Shown in pieces: positions 2,314 to 21,068 of a stretch of 24,618 nt of DNA. Numbering within the stretch: position 1 is the first letter of the stretch; each line of letters begins with the position of its first letter. The translations under genes and the position numbers were made by a program. The stretch is from contig MU619259.1 in the NCBI GenBank assembly GCA_025201805.1, positions 197,204 through 221,821 of the forward strand. Reading direction: 5' to 3'. Under the pieces are notes generated by a model that worked only from the letters and a program-made list of their open reading frames with translations, was not told the DNA's origin and searched no databases. This DNA is from Parasitella parasitica. Lineage: Eukaryota > Mucoromycota > Mucoromycetes > Mucorales > Mucoraceae.

Positions 2314-3884
2314 TTATCTCTTGTACTTGTCATAACCAGCAACAATGCTTTCAAGAGAGCGGCCCTTCGTTTCGGGTAAAGCAAAGAAAGTGAAGACAAA
2401 GGCCATGGCGCAAATGACAGCGAAAATCAGGAAAGACCAGCCTTCAATGGCAGCGAAAATGACAGGGAAAACTTGACCAATCAAGAAATTCATGCACCAG
2501 TTGATACAAGTAGAGGCAGCACCAACAGAGGAAGCAGCATAGGTAGGAGTCATTTCAGAGGTAATCAGCCAAGGGATGGGTCCAATACCTACGGCAAAGG
2601 AAGCAACGTACAAAAATACCGAGGCAATCAAAAGACCTGGAGTATTGGTCTTGTAACCAATGACCAAAAGCACGGAAAAGATACAGGTACCAGCCTCGGC
2701 TACAAGCAACAAGGGACGACGGCCGAAACGATCAATCACGCACACTGCGAAAATAGTGGCTACAAAGTTGACAATGGTGGTAACAATGGCCATAATCTGC
2801 GACATTTGTTCAGAACCATTAAAGGCGAGCAAGAAAATATTACTAGAGTAGTACATGACAGCATTCATACCAGACAATTGCTGAATGATGTGGTGCACGA
2901 AAACTGTGAAGCCGATACGACGCATGACAGGGTCCCTCATGACATCCAGCATGGACATAATTTCGTGAGACTCTTCGTTGGCGCCACCTATTTCTTCTTG
3001 ATCGTTGTCAAAAGAACCAGAAGTCTTGTCGTCAGTAACTTTGATGCCTTCATCATTACCGTGAAGCATAGCATTAGCAGCAGTCATGCCTTGGACACCT
3101 TGCACCATTTCGTAAAATTCTTGGTCAATTCGAGCATCACCACGAAGCTTTTGAAGAGCAGCACGGGCATCGTCAATACGGTTGACAGAGACTAACCAAC
3201 GAGGAGATTCAGCACAGGTTGGCATCATAAAGACTTGGAAGATGGCAGGGAAAGCAGTGATGGCATAGTTAATACGCCAGAGTGGAACCTTGGCAAGAGG
3301 AAGACCAATGCAAGAAGCCAAAAGAATACCGATGACGACCAAGAATTGGTTACAACTACCCATAGTGCCTCTACCCTTGATAGTAGAGACTTCGCCGATG
3401 TAGGTAGGCACAACCAATGAACCAAGGCCACAGGAAAGACCGCAAAGAATACGGCCGATGATGAACATGGCCTGATGGACAGCAACAGAGCATAAAAGAG
3501 ACCCAATAATGAACCCTGTGTTGTTGATAATGATGGTAAAACGACGACCGTATTTTTCTTGAATTCCACCACCAAAGAGAGAGGCAATGAGACCACCAAC
3601 ACAGAAAGAAGAAACGGCGAAACCCCTAGAATTAAATGTGGAGATGTACGTTAGACTTCTGGAATATATGCTAAGAATTAAACTTACCAGAGGGCGGTAT
3701 TCATAGGTAAACAATCGGGAAGGCCCTTTGCAGCGACTTGTTCCATTCCGTTTTCACAGATGTGAGTGACAGTTCCAGGAACATTGGAAGAACCAATGAC
3801 CCAGCCATTACAGAAGGCCTCAACACAGGCCATCACGACACAATAAACCATGTATTTTGGGAATTTAACGTCCTTTGAATCCAT
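2314..3884 (-). CDS. MFS sugar (hexose-type) transporter
   Basis: Two exons on the minus strand: 3884-3688 and 3625-2314, 502 residues. The intron 3687-3626 (62 nt) runs GTAAGT...CTAG and joins CTCTG to GGGTTTC, giving NTALWGFAVSS. Family signatures are clear: GRR after TM2 (residues 92-94), GRILCGLSCG in TM4 (about 123), ESPRWL at the end of TM6 (205-210), QQLSGMN in TM7 (314-320), DRFGRRP (364-370), GPIPW in TM10 (414-418) and PETKGRSLE at the C terminus (483-491). Twelve membrane segments fit. The QQLSG and GPIPW motifs place it with GLUT/STP-type hexose facilitators or proton symporters of the plasma membrane; the substrate cannot be read from sequence. The TM6-TM7 loop (about 211-296) is long and acidic. 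The start ATG at 3884 has a TATA box 74 bases upstream. The AT-rich intron also reads as an open frame, which should not be taken as an alternative N terminus. Confidence 0.93.
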
Positions 3885-3965: not shown

Positions 3966-5338
3966 CTTTGTAGAGCGCGAATTATCCCATCTTTTCCCAG
4001 GTTTCACACATTCCCTACAATTTGCCTCTTTTTGTACAAAACGATGTGGGTGAGGATTTCATCCGAGACATTTAGACCTAGTTGGGTGATTTCAGGGAAC
4101 TCAAGATGTTTATTCGTCTTTATTTTCACGCCATATCCGTAAACAGGAGCTTTTTGTTGCCGCAAGCACTTTTAACCGGATCTTGATCATGATTAACATG
4201 CATTTGAAAAAGTTCATGCTGTTTCAATGCAGACGAGGATTAATGTATAATCCGTAAACGTTGTGTCGACTGATGATTATTGTCGTGTGGTTAAAAACAA
4301 CCATCTACACCCGTGTGTCTTTTTTTCATTAGTACTATAAATCAGGTATCTAATGTTATATTGACAATGCACTGATGTTTAAAAGCGCACTACTCTCAAA
4401 GTCGTGGTAAGCTTAATGTTTTGTTTTTTTTTTCGTTCCTTTGTCATGCTACATCAACACTCAATATAATATTTAGATTCTCTTGGACCACGTATACATA
4501 ACAAAGCTACCCTCTTTTAAAAATAAACTCTGCTCTTCCATCTATATTTCGTAGCAGCTTTTGTTGTTGTGAAACTATCCATTCATTTGGTTAAAACATC
4601 AATATTCCATTTATGGTGAATTTCTTTACAATCTTATTCGCTTTGAGCAAAAGTAGCCAGTCAAAAAGGTCTTGTCATTATTAAGAAACCCTCACAACTT
4701 AACCACATAGTCCATGGGTTTCTTTATATATATTTTATGGACCTGGGTATGCGTTATTTATATGTGTGAAAGGCCCTTCTGATAAGAAACTATACTTGTA
4801 TATTAACCATTCTTTGCTTTCTGGCTTCCAGTTTTTTTCTGCTTGTGGCATATACCAAATGTCTTACATTCATATATTTTTTTTTTAATATAACGAAACC
4901 ATGGAGCCTTCCCGGTCTCCCAATCTTTCCAGTACGCACATCATTGTTTCAGTAAAGCAGCTATAAAATGCGATGCTAAAGTGTGCTTCAGTTACAAATT
5001 TTGTTCCTTGATTCTTTTGAAATGAAAACAATGAAAAGATAACTTCAATACAGAAAAAATAAATTGCTTTGACAGCAAGAATAGCAAGAGTTTATCATGC
5101 CTAAAAATGTGAAAGAACATGAGCTCAAGTATTTTACCAATAAAAGGTCGGGAAATAGGATGACAAATACAATACTTGATTTCGCCTTTTCTACTAACAA
5201 AGAGACACCGAGATAATGCTAATAAATTCGAGTAGCTACAAAAGTCTTTTTTGTTTATAAACAGTAACTTTAACCATTTGTAATAAGAATACTGATATTA
5301 TATGCGCACATTATTTACGCTACAAGTAGTTCATTTAT
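3966..5338. other. Intergenic, transporter promoter side and ALG8 3' flank
   Basis: About 1.37 kb of AT-rich DNA between the transporter start and the ALG8 stop. It includes T runs of 10 at 4424-4433 and 4877-4886. No open frame of credible composition, no tRNA-like fold and no clear repeat was seen. Upstream regulatory sites of the sugar transporter would lie at the left end, but I cannot name any with confidence. Confidence 0.5.
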
Positions 5339-6925
5339 TTATTCAGAAAGATAATCTACCATAAATATAGTCCATCCATATACTATACCTACGCTGCAGT
5401 ATAAGCTAGTTACCATCAAGGGTAGAAACTGAAGTTTATCTTGTCCAAACAGCAGGTCGTGCGCGAACCCTGTGTATAACTGAAGAAATAGTAAACCTAT
5501 GAGATAGTTTTTCTCCATTGCAGTTAAAAGGGTTTTCAAAGGCCTTCGGAAATGGTTAATACAAGTGATTATACTTTTCTCAACAATTTAAAAAGAAATA
5601 AAAGCTAACTTACGTTTTAACGCTGTATGCCAAGCCAGGAATAATTGCACAAAACCATAATAAAGTAATTGTGATTTTGATAGGCGTTTCTATTGTATAT
5701 TTTGTCAATTGACCTATTTATCATTCCACGTGTGTGGTTTTGCATATAGTTACCTGCACTTGTGAATAGCAGCGGATAGAGTGAGAAAATGCCAGCCGCA
5801 CTCAAAATTACAAAAACTCTCAAGTTGAGTCGACTATTGGAAGCCATTAATCTACAAACATTATGAGTAAAATACTCGCTTGATTCTCGGATAAAATTGT
5901 CGCTGAATTACCCGTATGGAATTAGCACAATCATAATAGCTTTTTCATGAACATGCCAACCAAAGAGATAAGAAGCAAATGTACATAATGTGATTGATGA
6001 CAAGAAGTTTTCAAATGTCGGTTGCCTCCATAATTTTTGTAATACGACCTACATGCCAATTGTTAGACGACAGACGCAAGTTTAAATACCAAAAGGCGGA
6101 AAGGGCTAAAAGGGGTCCCTCGGTTGTTGCCGTATTGTATCACTTACCAGCTGTATAATAAGCGTTATGATCATCGTATGTATAGCTTCAATCCCGGGCA
6201 ATACTGCAAATTGTGTATCCCCAACATAGCCTCTTGTCATAGAAGTAATTGCTAGCTCGTTTAAGCTCCATCCAAATTTTTTTCCCACTAATCAACCCAT
6301 TGTTGTAATTATTATTATAATCTTCAGAGTTGAGCGCACTACTTACAGATGATCAGCACTCTATCAGCGCCAGCATAAAGAGCCCAGAAATTCGGCGCCC
6401 AGTATGCATGACAAAGGCCGCGGGTAAATGGAAAGAGACGTTGGAAAACAGCGGGCAGCTGGTTCAAATACAAAAATGGGCCGAAAGAAATGCCAAATAC
6501 AGCCATGACGGATCCTCCCAATGTAATTAACCTTGAAAAAGAAAATCGGTTTCCTGTAAAAACAAAGTTTAGCTGGGTCAGGTTGATATTTCAAAGTTCT
6601 AGCATACCGTTTTCTTGCGTGGTAAAGCAATAAGCTTTCAACAAATATACAAAATAGGCGGGCGCCATGTACAAGTAGATGTGTTTAAAATTGAGTAGAA
6701 TGGCAAAAAGGATACCTGACGCTAAAAGGTTGTTCTGTAGAAATACAATGAGCAGTTGAGCAGAAGTTACATGCAGGATTGGGTTACTCTTTTAGCTTCT
6801 ACAATGGATAAAATCAAAATACCATACAATAGCCCATTGTATTGAAAGTGAATATGTAATTACCCATGTAACGTGTTAAGGACAATGGCATATCAAATTG
6901 CAAGTGTTAGTTTATAGTGTTCATA

Positions 6926-6962
<37 letters not shown>

Positions 6963-7557
6963 ATGATCCACGATAATCAGGCCGGGATGAAGAAACAGAG
7001 AGCCAACCAGCACCCAATTGACATACTTGTGCCCAAAATATTTGGCATATCTATAACTTTCATAGGTAAGCGAATACACAACTATACAAAATGTCTGTGT
7101 TGTTCTTTTACCTAACCAATGCAAAGTACATTACTAATTCACTCACAATTACAGTTAACCTTTGAAATATAACTGTGTCTACACTTGCATAACCAAGATT
7201 ATCTACTTTAAGCATCTCAGGATCCACTAATGATGCGAAAAAACTCAGGAATTTTTCGAACCAGGCGAAAAATGGAGGGTAATCTAATGTCCATTCTGAA
7301 GTATTCTAATACATTGTTGGTATCCAGTTCACCCTTCAGATAGCGCTGCTTACTTCAATATACCATTGATCAATGGGCAAACTATGTGTGATAGCCAGCC
7401 AATTTCGGTGTACCTCAAAATCTGTAGATCGACTATAGTGTAATTAGTTTGCTATGCAACTTCAGATTTTTCTTTAGTCAAGTGATGGCAACAGTACATA
7501 CTATGCGGGTATCAACAGTAATTTGATGAATGTACTAACGATAAATAAATCTCGCAT
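5339..7557 (-). CDS. ALG8: ALG8, dolichyl-P-Glc: Glc1Man9GlcNAc2-PP-dolichol alpha-1,3-glucosyltransferase
   Basis: Twelve exons (minus): 7557-7502, 7432-7354, 7305-7112, 7050-6965, 6855-6788, 6734-6608, 6553-6347, 6287-6148, 6048-5912, 5851-5754, 5689-5614, 5543-5339; 490 residues, in phase throughout. It adds the second glucose to the lipid-linked N-glycan precursor in the ER lumen (family knowledge, GT57). Diagnostic motifs: [11 protein letters not shown] (20-30, with the conserved luminal Asp23), [11 protein letters not shown] (48-58), DHIHFQYNG across the exon 4/5 joint, [26 protein letters not shown] (243-260) and GWHVHEKA (349-356). The [15 protein letters not shown] block separates Alg8 from Alg6. 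Human ALG8 is about 526 residues, so this is full length. An in-frame stop directly before the leader (TAA at 7615-7617) fixes the ATG at 7557. Ten introns are GT-AG (48-99 nt); intron 4 is AT-AC, described separately. The intron 3 acceptor could be 7051 or 7057; 7051 (TATAG) is preferred. Confidence 0.96.
6856..6964 (-). other. U12-type (minor spliceosome) AT-AC intron in ALG8
   Basis: The 109-nt intron 4 begins ATATCCTTT at 6964, the full consensus of U12-type AT-AC donors. It carries TCCTTAAC at 6882-6875, the U12 branch-site consensus, and ends TTAC at 6856, 20 nt after the branch A. The joint gives GAT C|AT ATT CAC, that is D-H-I-H, reading straight into FQYNG as in other Alg8 proteins. 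The minus strand has no AG between 6926 and 6855, so no ordinary acceptor is available after the T tract. The intron sits in phase 1 within the codon for His139. Confidence 0.93.
6927..6958 (-). repeat. 32-base poly-T (sense) inside the ALG8 U12-type intron
   Basis: On the + strand 32 consecutive A; in the ALG8 transcript 32 U, starting at the T positions of the ATATCCTTT donor. Length in the assembly is approximate, as for any long homopolymer. Confidence 0.95.
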
Positions 7558-8300: not shown

Positions 8301-9956
8301 CTAAAAATCAGGAAACTGGTCCCTGTAAGGATCATCTTGTGGAATGCCATACGGATGGAAATCTTCCGGATACCTGTCAAAGTTACTGGCATCCCCATCA
8401 CTCTTCAAATGCGGGATATGGGGCGGCTTGATCTTTCGCTGGATTAATTTATTGAAATCTAGAGACGCAAACCATTTATGCTCGCAGATATCATGATAGC
8501 CTCTCTTTAGATTACCATATCTTTGAGTCAGATCTGTAGTCAAGAGGTGGTTCAATAAATCTTTTGCAGTAGAGTCGATGGATGATGGATATTTGGGCTG
8601 AGTAGTCAGAATCTTTTCGTACAATTTGAATTGATTGTCATCATAGAAAGGAGGGAAGCTATACATTTAGAGCATTAGATAAAGTAGCATTCATTAAATT
8701 CAACATCAATTTTACCCAGCAAGCATTTCAAACACGAGCACACCAAACGCCCAATAATCTGCGGCTTTCCCATAGCCTTTGGTTTGGATAACTTCTGGTG
8801 CAAGATAGTCAGGTGTGCCACACAGAGTCCAAGTAATATCGGGAACTACTTTGGCAAAACCAAAATCGCAGATCTTGATGTGTCCATGTACATCTAACAG
8901 CAAATTCTCTGGCTTGAGATCACGATAGATGATATTTTTGCTATGCAAATAAGCCAACGCCAGCAAGACTTCGCCTGCGTAAAACCGAGCAACATCATTG
9001 CTAAATTTTTTTGACTTTCTCAAGAACGAAAAGAGTTCGCCTCCGGGAACAAAGTCCATTACCAGAAATAGACTTGTGCAATCTTGAAAACTGCCCCATA
9101 AATTGATGATAAAAGGATGCTGCACTTTGGTGAGAATAGACCGTTCGTTATTGGTATGCTCCACCTGCTTCAATTTGACAATTTCAGCCTTTTTTAATAC
9201 TTTTAAGGCATAGTGCCGCTTGTTGATTTTAGATTGAATCAAGTGAACACGCCCAAATGACCCTGTGCCCAGTGTTCTCTGCAGAATGAAATTGTCCAGT
9301 TTTAATTGGCAATGCGGGCGTGTAACGTCAGAATCATCCACTTGCTCCGTGCTGGCTGATGCATGGTTGTGGCTCTCTTGGCTTTTGGCTGAACTATGAC
9401 CACTGGAATTGCTACGAGCTAGAAATGATCCTCCAGGTGTTCTTGGTGGTGTTGAAGGCAACTGCTCGGGAAAGAATGGTGCTACAAAATTAAGACTATG
9501 AGTCTTTTACAAGTCAAAGTTGACACAAAAAAAAAAAAAAGAATTCATTACAATAATTAACTTTGGTTGCATCCGTTTTTGTTGTCTCTGCTAAAGATGC
9601 TGTGTTTCTAACAGCAGATTTCGGTGGTGTGCCAACTGGCGGTACAGATGCATTTTCTTTGATGGGTTCTGTGCGGGTAGGTGGAACTAGACGCCATTTG
9701 TCAGTATAGATAGGTGGCAACCACCCACAAGAAGAAACTTACTAGGTGGTGGTTCAACATAATTATCTTTTAAATCGTCTCTGTATCCAAATATATGCGC
9801 TGAAATTGCGGCTGTTGGTAGATTGTTTGCCAAGTGGAATTTATTATGTGATTGACTTTCGCTGCTACTTGTACTACCGGATTTATTGTTGCCATTGTGA
9901 TGGAATGAAAACCTAGGCTTTGCCTTGTCTATAATTTTACTAAGCATTGTAGGCAT
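8301..9956 (-). CDS. pkaC: cAMP-dependent protein kinase (PKA) catalytic subunit
   Basis: Four exons (minus): 9956-9743, 9686-9552, 9481-8716, 8658-8301; 490 residues, in phase. Introns of 56, 70 and 57 nt are all GT-AG; the first has a perfect CTGAC branch site, the second a 14-T tract. An AGC serine/threonine kinase domain starts near residue 180: glycine loop GTGSFGRV (188-195), ATP-binding Lys210 in YALKV, Glu229 in helix C, catalytic YRDLKPEN with Asp304, DFG (322-324), activation loop [14 protein letters not shown] with the phospho-threonine equivalent at 335, and a C-terminal tail ending FPDF, the PKA-type hydrophobic motif. It phosphorylates targets when cAMP releases the regulatory subunit. 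The first ~180 residues are low-complexity (Ser, Pro, Asn), as usual in fungal PKA. The start is uncertain: in-frame ATGs at 10043 and 10034 would add a Phe-rich stretch that looks like a pyrimidine-rich leader, so 9956 is preferred. The symbol is generic; paralogues are likely elsewhere. Confidence 0.93.
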
Positions 9957-11623: not shown

Positions 11624-12823
11624 TTACCAGCCAGTAATGTTTTTATGTCTACTTTCCAAGAATTTAAACAAAGATCCAGGTTCCTTCTTCCATTGATTAT
11701 GCCAATGGTAAGCAAATGTCTGTAATAATCGCTCCTCGTCAAATTCTGCTTCAATAAATGCATTAGGCATCGAGTTTTTAGGAGAGCAAACCATTGAATC
11801 AGTAAAACACCACGGTAACACAGCCCAAGGACGGATTCCGTGATGCAGTAAACGGCGATAGATTCTATAGTACATGTACCCTCCCCAATCAATGGTATCT
11901 GGTCGTGGCAAAGGGCCTGACGCTAATTCAGAGAGCATTTCACACAAATAAGGCGATTTCTTGTAGAAACGCATAAAGGCGCCATTGAAAGGGAATCCAT
12001 TTGGCAAAAAACAATCCCATTGAGACAACCACTCATGCTCGAGGAGAGGAGTCATATCTCTGATAAACAGACTATCCATATCAAACCACATGCCACCGTA
12101 GCGATAAATAGCCAGCAAGCGGATCAAATCACCATCTAAATAACCGCTGTCGTCTTTAAAATCCAAATGAGCTGAGCCTTCCATAGGAGAACCCTTGGCT
12201 AATTCATGAGAATTGTAGATCTTTGTTACCAGACGATCACCAACATGTTCTTTGATTTGCTGAATAACTGGAGAAAGCGACAAATCACCGTTTGACCATA
12301 GGTAAAGTACAGCATTCTCAGGATCCTGTGTAGCAAAAAAGGAACGGAGGGTGGCAAGCTGTTTGGGACCAACAGGAGCAATGTCAGAACGCCAATAAGC
12401 ATGGTAAACCGTCTTTTCCTTCGAGATGGGGTGCTTTAACGGCTCAGATTTGATTGTGGCAGCGAAATCATAGCAATCATAATCTTCCATTAAACTGATA
12501 CCAGGAGCAACGTCGTATGCATACTGATTTACACCATTCAAGTAGGGACTATTCTCAGGTAAGCTATCGAAACAACCAGCCAACGGCTTGTAATACTCTT
12601 CATCAGCATGCGAAATCCAATCACGGAGGTACACACGCACATTCACTTGTAGCTGGCAAATAGCAAAGAAAGAGATAACAACTGTAGCAATAACCAGAAT
12701 TGTATACTTGATTATTGTGATGATTCTCCAGCGTTTTGGTCTGATAAATGTGGAAGGACTTCCAAGCCTTGTGTATGTTTTGTTTGTGTTATTCCTTCCA
12801 AGTAAATTTGAAAAGAATCCCAT
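11624..12823 (-). CDS. Type II membrane glycosyltransferase with DxD motif (Gly_transf_sug / GT32-like)
   Basis: Single exon, 399 residues, from ATG at 12823. A short basic cytoplasmic tail (to KRW near 31-33) is followed by one membrane anchor at about 35-58 (IITIIKYTILVIATVVISFF), then a large lumenal domain: the topology of Golgi glycosyltransferases. The catalytic signature is GDLIRLLAIYRYGGMWFDMD (231-250), with the metal and nucleotide-sugar binding DMD at 248-250; this matches the DxD sugar-binding family that includes Och1-like and alpha-1,4-glycosyltransferases. YHAYWR (141-146) corresponds to the start of the catalytic core, and the C-terminal FAYHWHNQW is a further family-like motif. 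It probably adds a sugar to glycoproteins or glycolipids using a nucleotide sugar; donor and acceptor cannot be told from sequence. It shares a general pathway with ALG8 but lies 4 kb away behind its own promoter. Confidence 0.9.
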   Translation of the reverse strand: MGFFSNLLGRNNTNKTYTRLGSPSTFIRPKRWRIITIIKYTILVIATVVISFFAICQLQVNVRVYLRDWISHADEEYYKPLAGCFDSLPENSPYLNGVNQYAYDVAPGISLMEDYDCYDFAATIKSEPLKHPISKEKTVYHAYWRSDIAPVGPKQLATLRSFFATQDPENAVLYLWSNGDLSLSPVIQQIKEHVGDRLVTKIYNSHELAKGSPMEGSAHLDFKDDSGYLDGDLIRLLAIYRYGGMWFDMDSLFIRDMTPLLEHEWLSQWDCFLPNGFPFNGAFMRFYKKSPYLCEMLSELASGPLPRPDTIDWGGYMYYRIYRRLLHHGIRPWAVLPWCFTDSMVCSPKNSMPNAFIEAEFDEERLLQTFAYHWHNQWKKEPGSLFKFLESRHKNITGW

Positions 12824-12899
12824 ATTCAAGTATTGGTATTACGACTGGTAGGGAAAAAGTGGAAAGAAGGAAAAGACTTGCTTTAATTTGTAGTGTATG

Positions 12900-19989: not shown

Positions 19990-21068
19990 CTACTTTCTAG
20001 CAAAGGTAACCTTCATTTCTTGATCTGGGCCAAATGAATGGCCAGAGAGCTCAGATTTGGCAGCGGCAGACTGGAGCTCGTTATCGTACTCAACAAATGC
20101 AATCGATCTCTTTGTAGGGATCATACGAACTTCTCTGAAACCAGGAAAACGCTGGAATAGATCCACAAGTTGCTGCTGAGTGATTGTTTCTGGTAATTTC
20201 TGCAGGAAAAGAATGTTGTTGGGTGGTAGATACTCGTCTGGAATATTGGCTGTGGGATTGAAGTGTGTAGATTCTAATAAAGCTTATTAGCAAACTTGAA
20301 GAATAAATGACGCACACGACATACTCTGCTGAGGTCTACTAGCCTTGAACGTTGGTTTATGAGATCCAGGAAGAGGCAGCTTGGATGTCTCCTCCTTTTT
20401 AGCCATACGCTGTTTGTAGTGTGTCTCATAATCACCATCGGATTTAGCATGCACATCTGATCTATTGCGAGCGAATTGAAGCACCATTGGCTTATCATAC
20501 AGGCTGAAATGCTGCAATTCCTTGATGGCCTTTTCTGCACTGTCTTCGTTAGGGAACGCGACAAATGCTTGTCCACGCATGCGGATATTTTGGTGGGCTA
20601 CAACATCGAGCACATCGCCAAACTGCTTGAACAATGTGCGCAAAGAGTTTTTCAGCACTAAATAGTCGCAACTGTTAGTAACCTGTGCTTGCCACATCCT
20701 AAACACTGCGTTTTCTCACCGTCCAATTTCACCTTTTCGTTGAGATTGCTAACATAAACTGTTCGGCTAGGCGTTGTGTTGGGAGGCTGTTTGGCTATAG
20801 GGATGCCATTAACTGTACCAGTTGGTGCGGTAGGAGCAGCAGCAACTGGAACACCAGGCGTAAATGGCATGCCACCGGGAGGGAACTGTCCTTGAGCTGG
20901 TGGAGGTCCACCAGGAAAACCTCCATGTGATGGAGGCATGTTGCCCGGAGGAAATCCAGCAGGTGGCATGCCGCCACCAGGAAATGGAGGAGGGCCATTG
21001 CTTCCGTTGAAAGCTGTGGGCGGTGGTGCGCTTCCAGGCGCCATTTGCGGTTGTGGAGGCTGAGACAT
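19990..21068 (-). CDS. U1A/U2B''-type spliceosomal snRNP protein (two RRMs)
   Basis: Three exons (minus): 21068-20720, 20657-20325, 20273-19990; 321 residues, in phase. Introns 20719-20658 (62 nt, branch TACTAAC) and 20324-20274 (51 nt) are GT-AG. RRM1 spans about 102-183, with RNP2 VYVSNL and RNP1 RGQAFVAF, plus NLNEKVKLD and YDKPM, all hallmarks of the U1A/U2B''/SNF family that binds U1 hairpin II or U2 hairpin IV RNA. RRM2 spans about 247-319 (ILFLQKLPE, RSIAFVEY) and ends at FARK. A Gly/Pro/Met-rich segment of ~100 residues precedes RRM1, whereas animal U1A begins almost directly with RRM1. The start ATG at 21068 (AACATGTCT) is the first in the frame. It acts in the nucleus in 5' splice site or branch-site recognition. 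Whether it serves U1, U2 or both cannot be decided from sequence alone. Confidence 0.93.

Follow-up and report, generated by a model that had tools for sequence, protein, structure and literature searches.

A probable U12-type AT-AC intron in the ALG8 gene of Parasitella parasitica, a fungus of the Mucorales

Minor introns in Mucorales and the ALG8 gene of Parasitella

U12-type introns, some of them with AT-AC ends, are described in the main text of PMC2846911 for the Mucorales Rhizopus oryzae and Phycomyces blakesleeanus, together with a donor rule, RTATCCTT, and Table 2 of that paper marks U12-spliceosomal RNAs as present for these fungi. Citing this work, the text of PMC10639083 gives about four minor introns for R. 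oryzae and about 20 for Phycomyces, and reports 205 for Rhizophagus irregularis and 249 for Basidiobolus meristosporus, with standard motifs. Its figure legends also mention Mucor lusitanicus and Rhizopus microsporus. The main text of PMC2846911, whose intron sequences are in its additional file 2, does not contain the word ALG8. A literature search combining ALG8 with U12-type intron, minor intron or minor spliceosome found no report of an ALG8 minor intron, the one match being an RNA-seq study of wound infection. Judged against main texts, ALG8 may be a new entry among minor-intron genes.

The fourth intron of the ALG8 gene of P. parasitica is almost certainly, judging from its sequence, a minor spliceosomal intron of the AT-AC subclass. 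It shares the order Mucorales, the AT-AC ends and the donor rule with the introns of R. oryzae and P. blakesleeanus described in the text of PMC2846911, so that it appears as a new example of a kind of intron already known in Mucorales from that paper and PMC10639083. The statement in the first-pass annotation that U12-type introns have been reported in Mucoromycota agrees with what both texts state. In contrast, the minor introns given for Rhizophagus irregularis and Basidiobolus meristosporus in PMC10639083 are far denser than the single convincing one in 224,618 bases of Parasitella DNA. This scarcity agrees with the low numbers quoted there for R. oryzae and Phycomyces, as against 205 in Rhizophagus.

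In the window, the whole stretch of 24,618 nucleotides that was analysed, the ALG8 gene is read on the minus strand (Table 1). Its spliced product equals P0001, the annotated P. parasitica protein and the best homologue, in 490 of 490 residues. In the corrected gene model 10 of the 11 introns are GT-AG and intron 4 is AT-AC, which bears out the earlier description of the other ten as ordinary. A 40-nt intron 3 was dropped from the model after comparison with P0001, which places this intron at 7111-7051 (61 nt). The queries for homologues, PF03155 and solved structures were made with the earlier model carrying the wrong intron 3. PF03155 (Alg6_Alg8) covers the full length of the protein with 563 bits, the query differing from the final model only at that intron. 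The identity as ALG8 and not ALG6 is taken from the source names of homologues such as P0023 and P0042 (Glc1Man9GlcNAc2 glucosyltransferase), and a sequence search among solved structures yielded one relative, the ALG6-type enzyme 6snh (E 2.7e-31). The full-length match and the DHIHFQYNG motif are common to the protein and the ALG6/ALG8 glucosyltransferase family PF03155, against which nothing unusual was noted in it; the rarity is confined to the intron.

Table 1. Coordinates of the ALG8 gene and of the elements of intron 4, in window positions
Feature	Position	Strand	Remarks
ALG8 gene, start to stop codon	5339..7557	-	12 exons; spliced 490 aa identical to P0001
ALG8 exons 1-4	7557-7502, 7432-7354, 7305-7112, 7050-6965	-	
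ALG8 exons 5-8	6855-6788, 6734-6608, 6553-6347, 6287-6148	-	
ALG8 exons 9-12	6048-5912, 5851-5754, 5689-5614, 5543-5339	-	
Exon 4	6965..7050	-	...IIVD, then base 1 of H codon
Intron 4, probable U12-type AT-AC	6856..6964	-	109 nt, phase 1, ATATCCTTT start, ATTAC end
5' splice site ATATCCTTT	6956..6964	-	motif search and U6atac duplex prediction
Run of 32 T	6927..6958	-	shares last three letters of donor
Branch site TCCTTAAC	6875..6882	-	probable branch A 6876, 20 nt ahead of intron end
3' splice site AC	6856..6857	-	sequence
Exon 5	6788..6855	-	opens with bases 2-3 of H codon, then IHFQYNG

Several other genes are apparent in the window, all on the minus strand. Upstream of ALG8 lies a protein kinase frame (8712-9461; PF00069, 215 bits), with an apparent continuation at 8301-8666 that has no Pfam match. 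The Mucor velutinosus ALG8 record P0005 carries a serine/threonine kinase name, perhaps through a mix-up with such a neighbour. An MFS-class sugar transporter (2314-3714; PF00083, 343 bits) and a putative glycosyltransferase with a DXD sugar-binding region (11624-12829; PF04488, 26.3 bits) are also found. An open frame at 20287-20706 with an RRM domain (PF00076, 46.6 bits) looks like one gene with the frame at 20658-21068. Together they appear to resemble the U1A/U2B'' spliceosomal proteins, and a major-spliceosome protein may be encoded at 20287-21068.

Splice sites, reading frame and rival readings of intron 4

In the minor spliceosome the donor is read by U11 and then by U6atac, and U12 pairs at the branch site with the branch A bulged. 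The donor of intron 4, ATATCCTT at 6964-6957, conforms to the RTATCCTT rule of U12-type introns. The branch site TCCTTAAC at 6882-6875 approximates the consensus TTCCTTAAC, the preceding letter being G and not T. The 20 nt from the branch A to the end of the intron fall near the upper limit of what is usual for U12-type introns. In duplex predictions, made without a shuffle control, TTGTCCTTA of the branch region pairs with UAAGGAUAA of U12 at -9.6 kcal/mol and TCCTTT of the donor pairs with AAAGGA of U6atac at -5.9 kcal/mol. The donor would be read by U11 and then U6atac, U12 would pair with TCCTTAAC so as to bulge the branch A, and excision would join GATC to ATATTC. The resulting in-frame junction, GAT C/AT ATT CAC TTT CAA TAC AAT GGG (slash at the splice), encodes DHIHFQYNG. 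If it were retained, the reading frame would be off by one base (109 = 3 x 36 + 1). The coordinates, donor, branch site and terminal AC given by the first-pass annotation are exact on the minus strand, and the restoration of DHIHFQYNG that it described is borne out by the identity of the product with P0001.

The motifs differ in how readily they arise by chance. The donor RTATCCTTT alone is not special: it occurs twice in the window against 0.75 expected, the second copy lying at 6715-6707 within exon 6 of ALG8, and at least two copies appear in 16 shuffles. In a larger sample of 224,618 bases, made up of the first 200 kb of contig C1 and the window, the two strands together hold a single perfect combination of donor, branch and end, that of ALG8 intron 4. 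Order-3 Markov shuffles of this sample gave a mean of 0.13 perfect sets, and 7 of the 60 contained one or more, so the motifs by themselves would not be overwhelming evidence over 224,618 bases.

A different splice, with GT-AG ends, could be used instead, or the intron could be retained, the AT-AC reading then arising by chance or through an assembly fault in the run of T. The 32-T run may indeed be mis-sized, and a GTATGA stands behind it. Against this, AG is absent from the whole of intron 4, as had been claimed for the part between the T tract and exon 5. The first AG past the donor is at 6800, 55 nt into exon 5 and beyond the HIHFQYNG codons, and P0001 keeps the motif. When all single excisions of at least 20 bases were tried across exon 4, intron 4 and exon 5, eight yielded the same protein, one junction being slid along a repeat. 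None of the eight is GT-AG, so that no single GT-AG excision here can yield P0001; one is AT-AC, and only that version has the U12 donor at the intron start. Chance is further opposed by the pair itself, since ATATCCTT followed after 60-90 nt by TCCTTAAC has one match in the window and none in 100 dinucleotide shuffles. A GT-AG splice or retention is therefore considered very improbable. Because the excisions include no GT-AG form, the annotation of P0001 would have used a non-canonical intron, if its DNA resembles that of the window, and such an intron usually implies transcript evidence.

Removal of intron 4 by the major (U2) spliceosome is given equally little credence. AT-AC introns of the major spliceosome do exist, and a CTAAC is present in the middle of the intron, though distant from the 3' end. 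However, donor and branch fit the U12 motifs at every base, and three minor snRNAs are matched in the genome. The U12-type AT-AC reading put forward by the first-pass annotation remains the best one; it draws on the observed sites, frame, snRNA matches and identity with P0001. From the splice sites we infer that the splicing reaction at intron 4 would take place on the minor spliceosome and that ALG8 would depend on it.

Runs of A or T up to 72 bases long are frequent in this DNA, for example at 149-198 and 6927-6958 of the window and at the loci L034, L028 and L032; the 224,618-base sample holds 18 runs of at least 20 bases.

Minor-spliceosome components and other candidate introns

The genome searched comprised 30.7 Mb in 232 contigs. 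With the Rfam models, one match each was obtained for U12 (49.1 bits, E 1.5e-7) and U4atac (47.9 bits, E 5.2e-6), both under the cut-off of 53, and for U6atac (64.5 bits, E 3.1e-14), above its cut-off. A cmscan against all of Rfam assigned the three matches to the same families. The U12 match contains GUAAGGA, the U6atac match contains AAGGAGA and a terminal U run, and Sm-like sites, AAUUUUUGG, are present in both the U12 and the U4atac matches. The duplex of U4atac with U6atac has a predicted energy of -30.0 kcal/mol, which none of 500 mononucleotide shuffles reached (lowest, -22.3). By eye in the alignments, both bases of one U4atac-U6atac pair differ from those of the Rfam consensus (C-G to G-U) and can still pair. 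The Rfam model of U11 had no match at E<=10 in a weak search that scored 39 out of 2584 candidates; at this loose threshold three bacterial control genomes matched, none above the cut-off. The expectation that minor snRNAs would be found in the same genome thus holds for U12, U4atac and U6atac and is not confirmed for U11 by this search, and a genome devoid of U12 and U6atac, which had been named as evidence against the intron, is not what was found.

Among minor-spliceosome proteins, a PDCD7/U11-59K relative was found at 49.4 bits, above the Pfam cut-off; its match to the solved PDCD7 chain 8r7n_D is weak (E 0.011). Weak searches, run without a known-positive control genome, gave no genome match for PF05253 (zf-U11-48K, a model of 25 positions; the 48K protein had been proposed by the first-pass annotation), PF18036, PF15803 and PF14968, which presumably stand for minor-spliceosome protein families. 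In the controls three of these four matched nothing and PF05253 matched one prokaryote only, so the failure to find them is no proof of absence.

Further U12-type introns were also sought. The strong branch motif TTTTCCTTRACT shows no excess in the genome, where it has 19 places and its reversed control 31, so that few further introns of this kind are visible. One of the 19 loci (L019) has an RTATC[CT]TT donor within 400 bases upstream, at a distance of 167 bases. It was taken as chance, since the strand facing its downstream part carries an open frame. The 224,618-base sample holds seven donor/branch pairs with at most one branch mismatch, the ALG8 pair included; the corresponding order-3 Markov shuffles had a mean of 2.2 and reached seven in 0 of 60. 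When the flanks of these seven and of four pairs with one donor mismatch were translated and judged by eye, none except ALG8 linked two clear coding stretches. A weak GT-AG candidate of U12 type is present at 5152-5274 on the plus strand of L032, with GTATCCTTGA, TCCTTATC and an AG end. It follows an open hydrolase-like frame near the end of the gene. Once joined, the frame continues for 13 codons before a stop, against closure after nine codons without the splice. Apart from this weak candidate, ALG8 intron 4 is the only convincing U12-type intron in the 224,618 bases sampled.

The intron 4 site in relatives and its possible meaning

Broken models were counted by script at each ALG8 junction in the best 120 of 4211 homologues, at the protein level. 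Grouped from their names, these comprised 57 Mucoromycota-like rows, P0001 excluded, and 62 others; three unnamed rows (P0003, P0022 and P0029) were put in the Mucoromycota-like set by similarity. Among these best 120, the intron-4 junction is broken in 7 of 57 Mucoromycota-like models versus 0 of 62 others, and the intact models (50 of 57 and 62 of 62) are uninformative on introns either way. Eight other junctions are broken in 1 to 12 of the 57, and two variable stretches in 25 and 49. The crude count does not single out the intron-4 site, and because of this the argument for a shared intron relies on how the models P0005, P0023, P0025, P0027, P0028 and perhaps P0096 are broken.

Three of the seven were set aside. 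P0040 merely starts later and P0020 is without several exons, while the reading of P0043 (Absidia cylindrospora) is shifted in frame but continuous. In P0043, 34 consecutive residues are compatible, in the other frame, with the Absidia repens protein, the best of 100 shuffled references reaching 7. Because this reading passes the site without a break, A. cylindrospora seems to have no intron here. P0005 and P0028, which are broken up to this codon and fall below the script threshold, were added by eye.

In the protein alignment, the ALG8 models of five named relatives are broken here, within a near-invariant motif. In the Zychaea and Fennellomyces models VDH-HFQ alone is missing, as would result if an intron had been forced between the GT of the Val codon and the AG of a CAG Gln codon. 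In the Spinellus model nine foreign residues replace VD, and in those of Mucor velutinosus and Circinella a longer upstream stretch is lost or foreign, up to this codon. The last three (P0005, P0025 and P0028) retain the H of HIHFQ or HMHFQ, so that the last intron base would be C, as in AC, and not G, if the intron lies at the same phase-1 place. The Gigaspora model lacks a longer piece that begins at this site. As public records, P0023, P0027, P0025, P0028, P0005 and P0096 look wrong at DHIHFQYNG.

These breaks hint that intron 4 is common to the relatives by ancestry, a likely interpretation more than a result. A wider proposal, to which an even chance may be given, is that an old minor intron has kept the same codon position across Mucoromycota (Mucor, Parasitella, Spinellus, Zychaea, Fennellomyces, Circinella and perhaps Gigaspora) and was lost in Absidia cylindrospora. 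In Mucorales with only a handful of minor introns left, it would be among the few that keep the second spliceosome necessary, and it would have broken public gene models.

The apparent failure of relatives' models at this site suggests that annotation pipelines should permit AT-AC introns in early-diverging fungi. P. parasitica has a small genome with minor-spliceosome RNAs and, it seems, few minor introns, which makes it handy for asking what minimum of such introns keeps a second spliceosome. A further question is whether one gene such as ALG8 could be the reason for keeping it.
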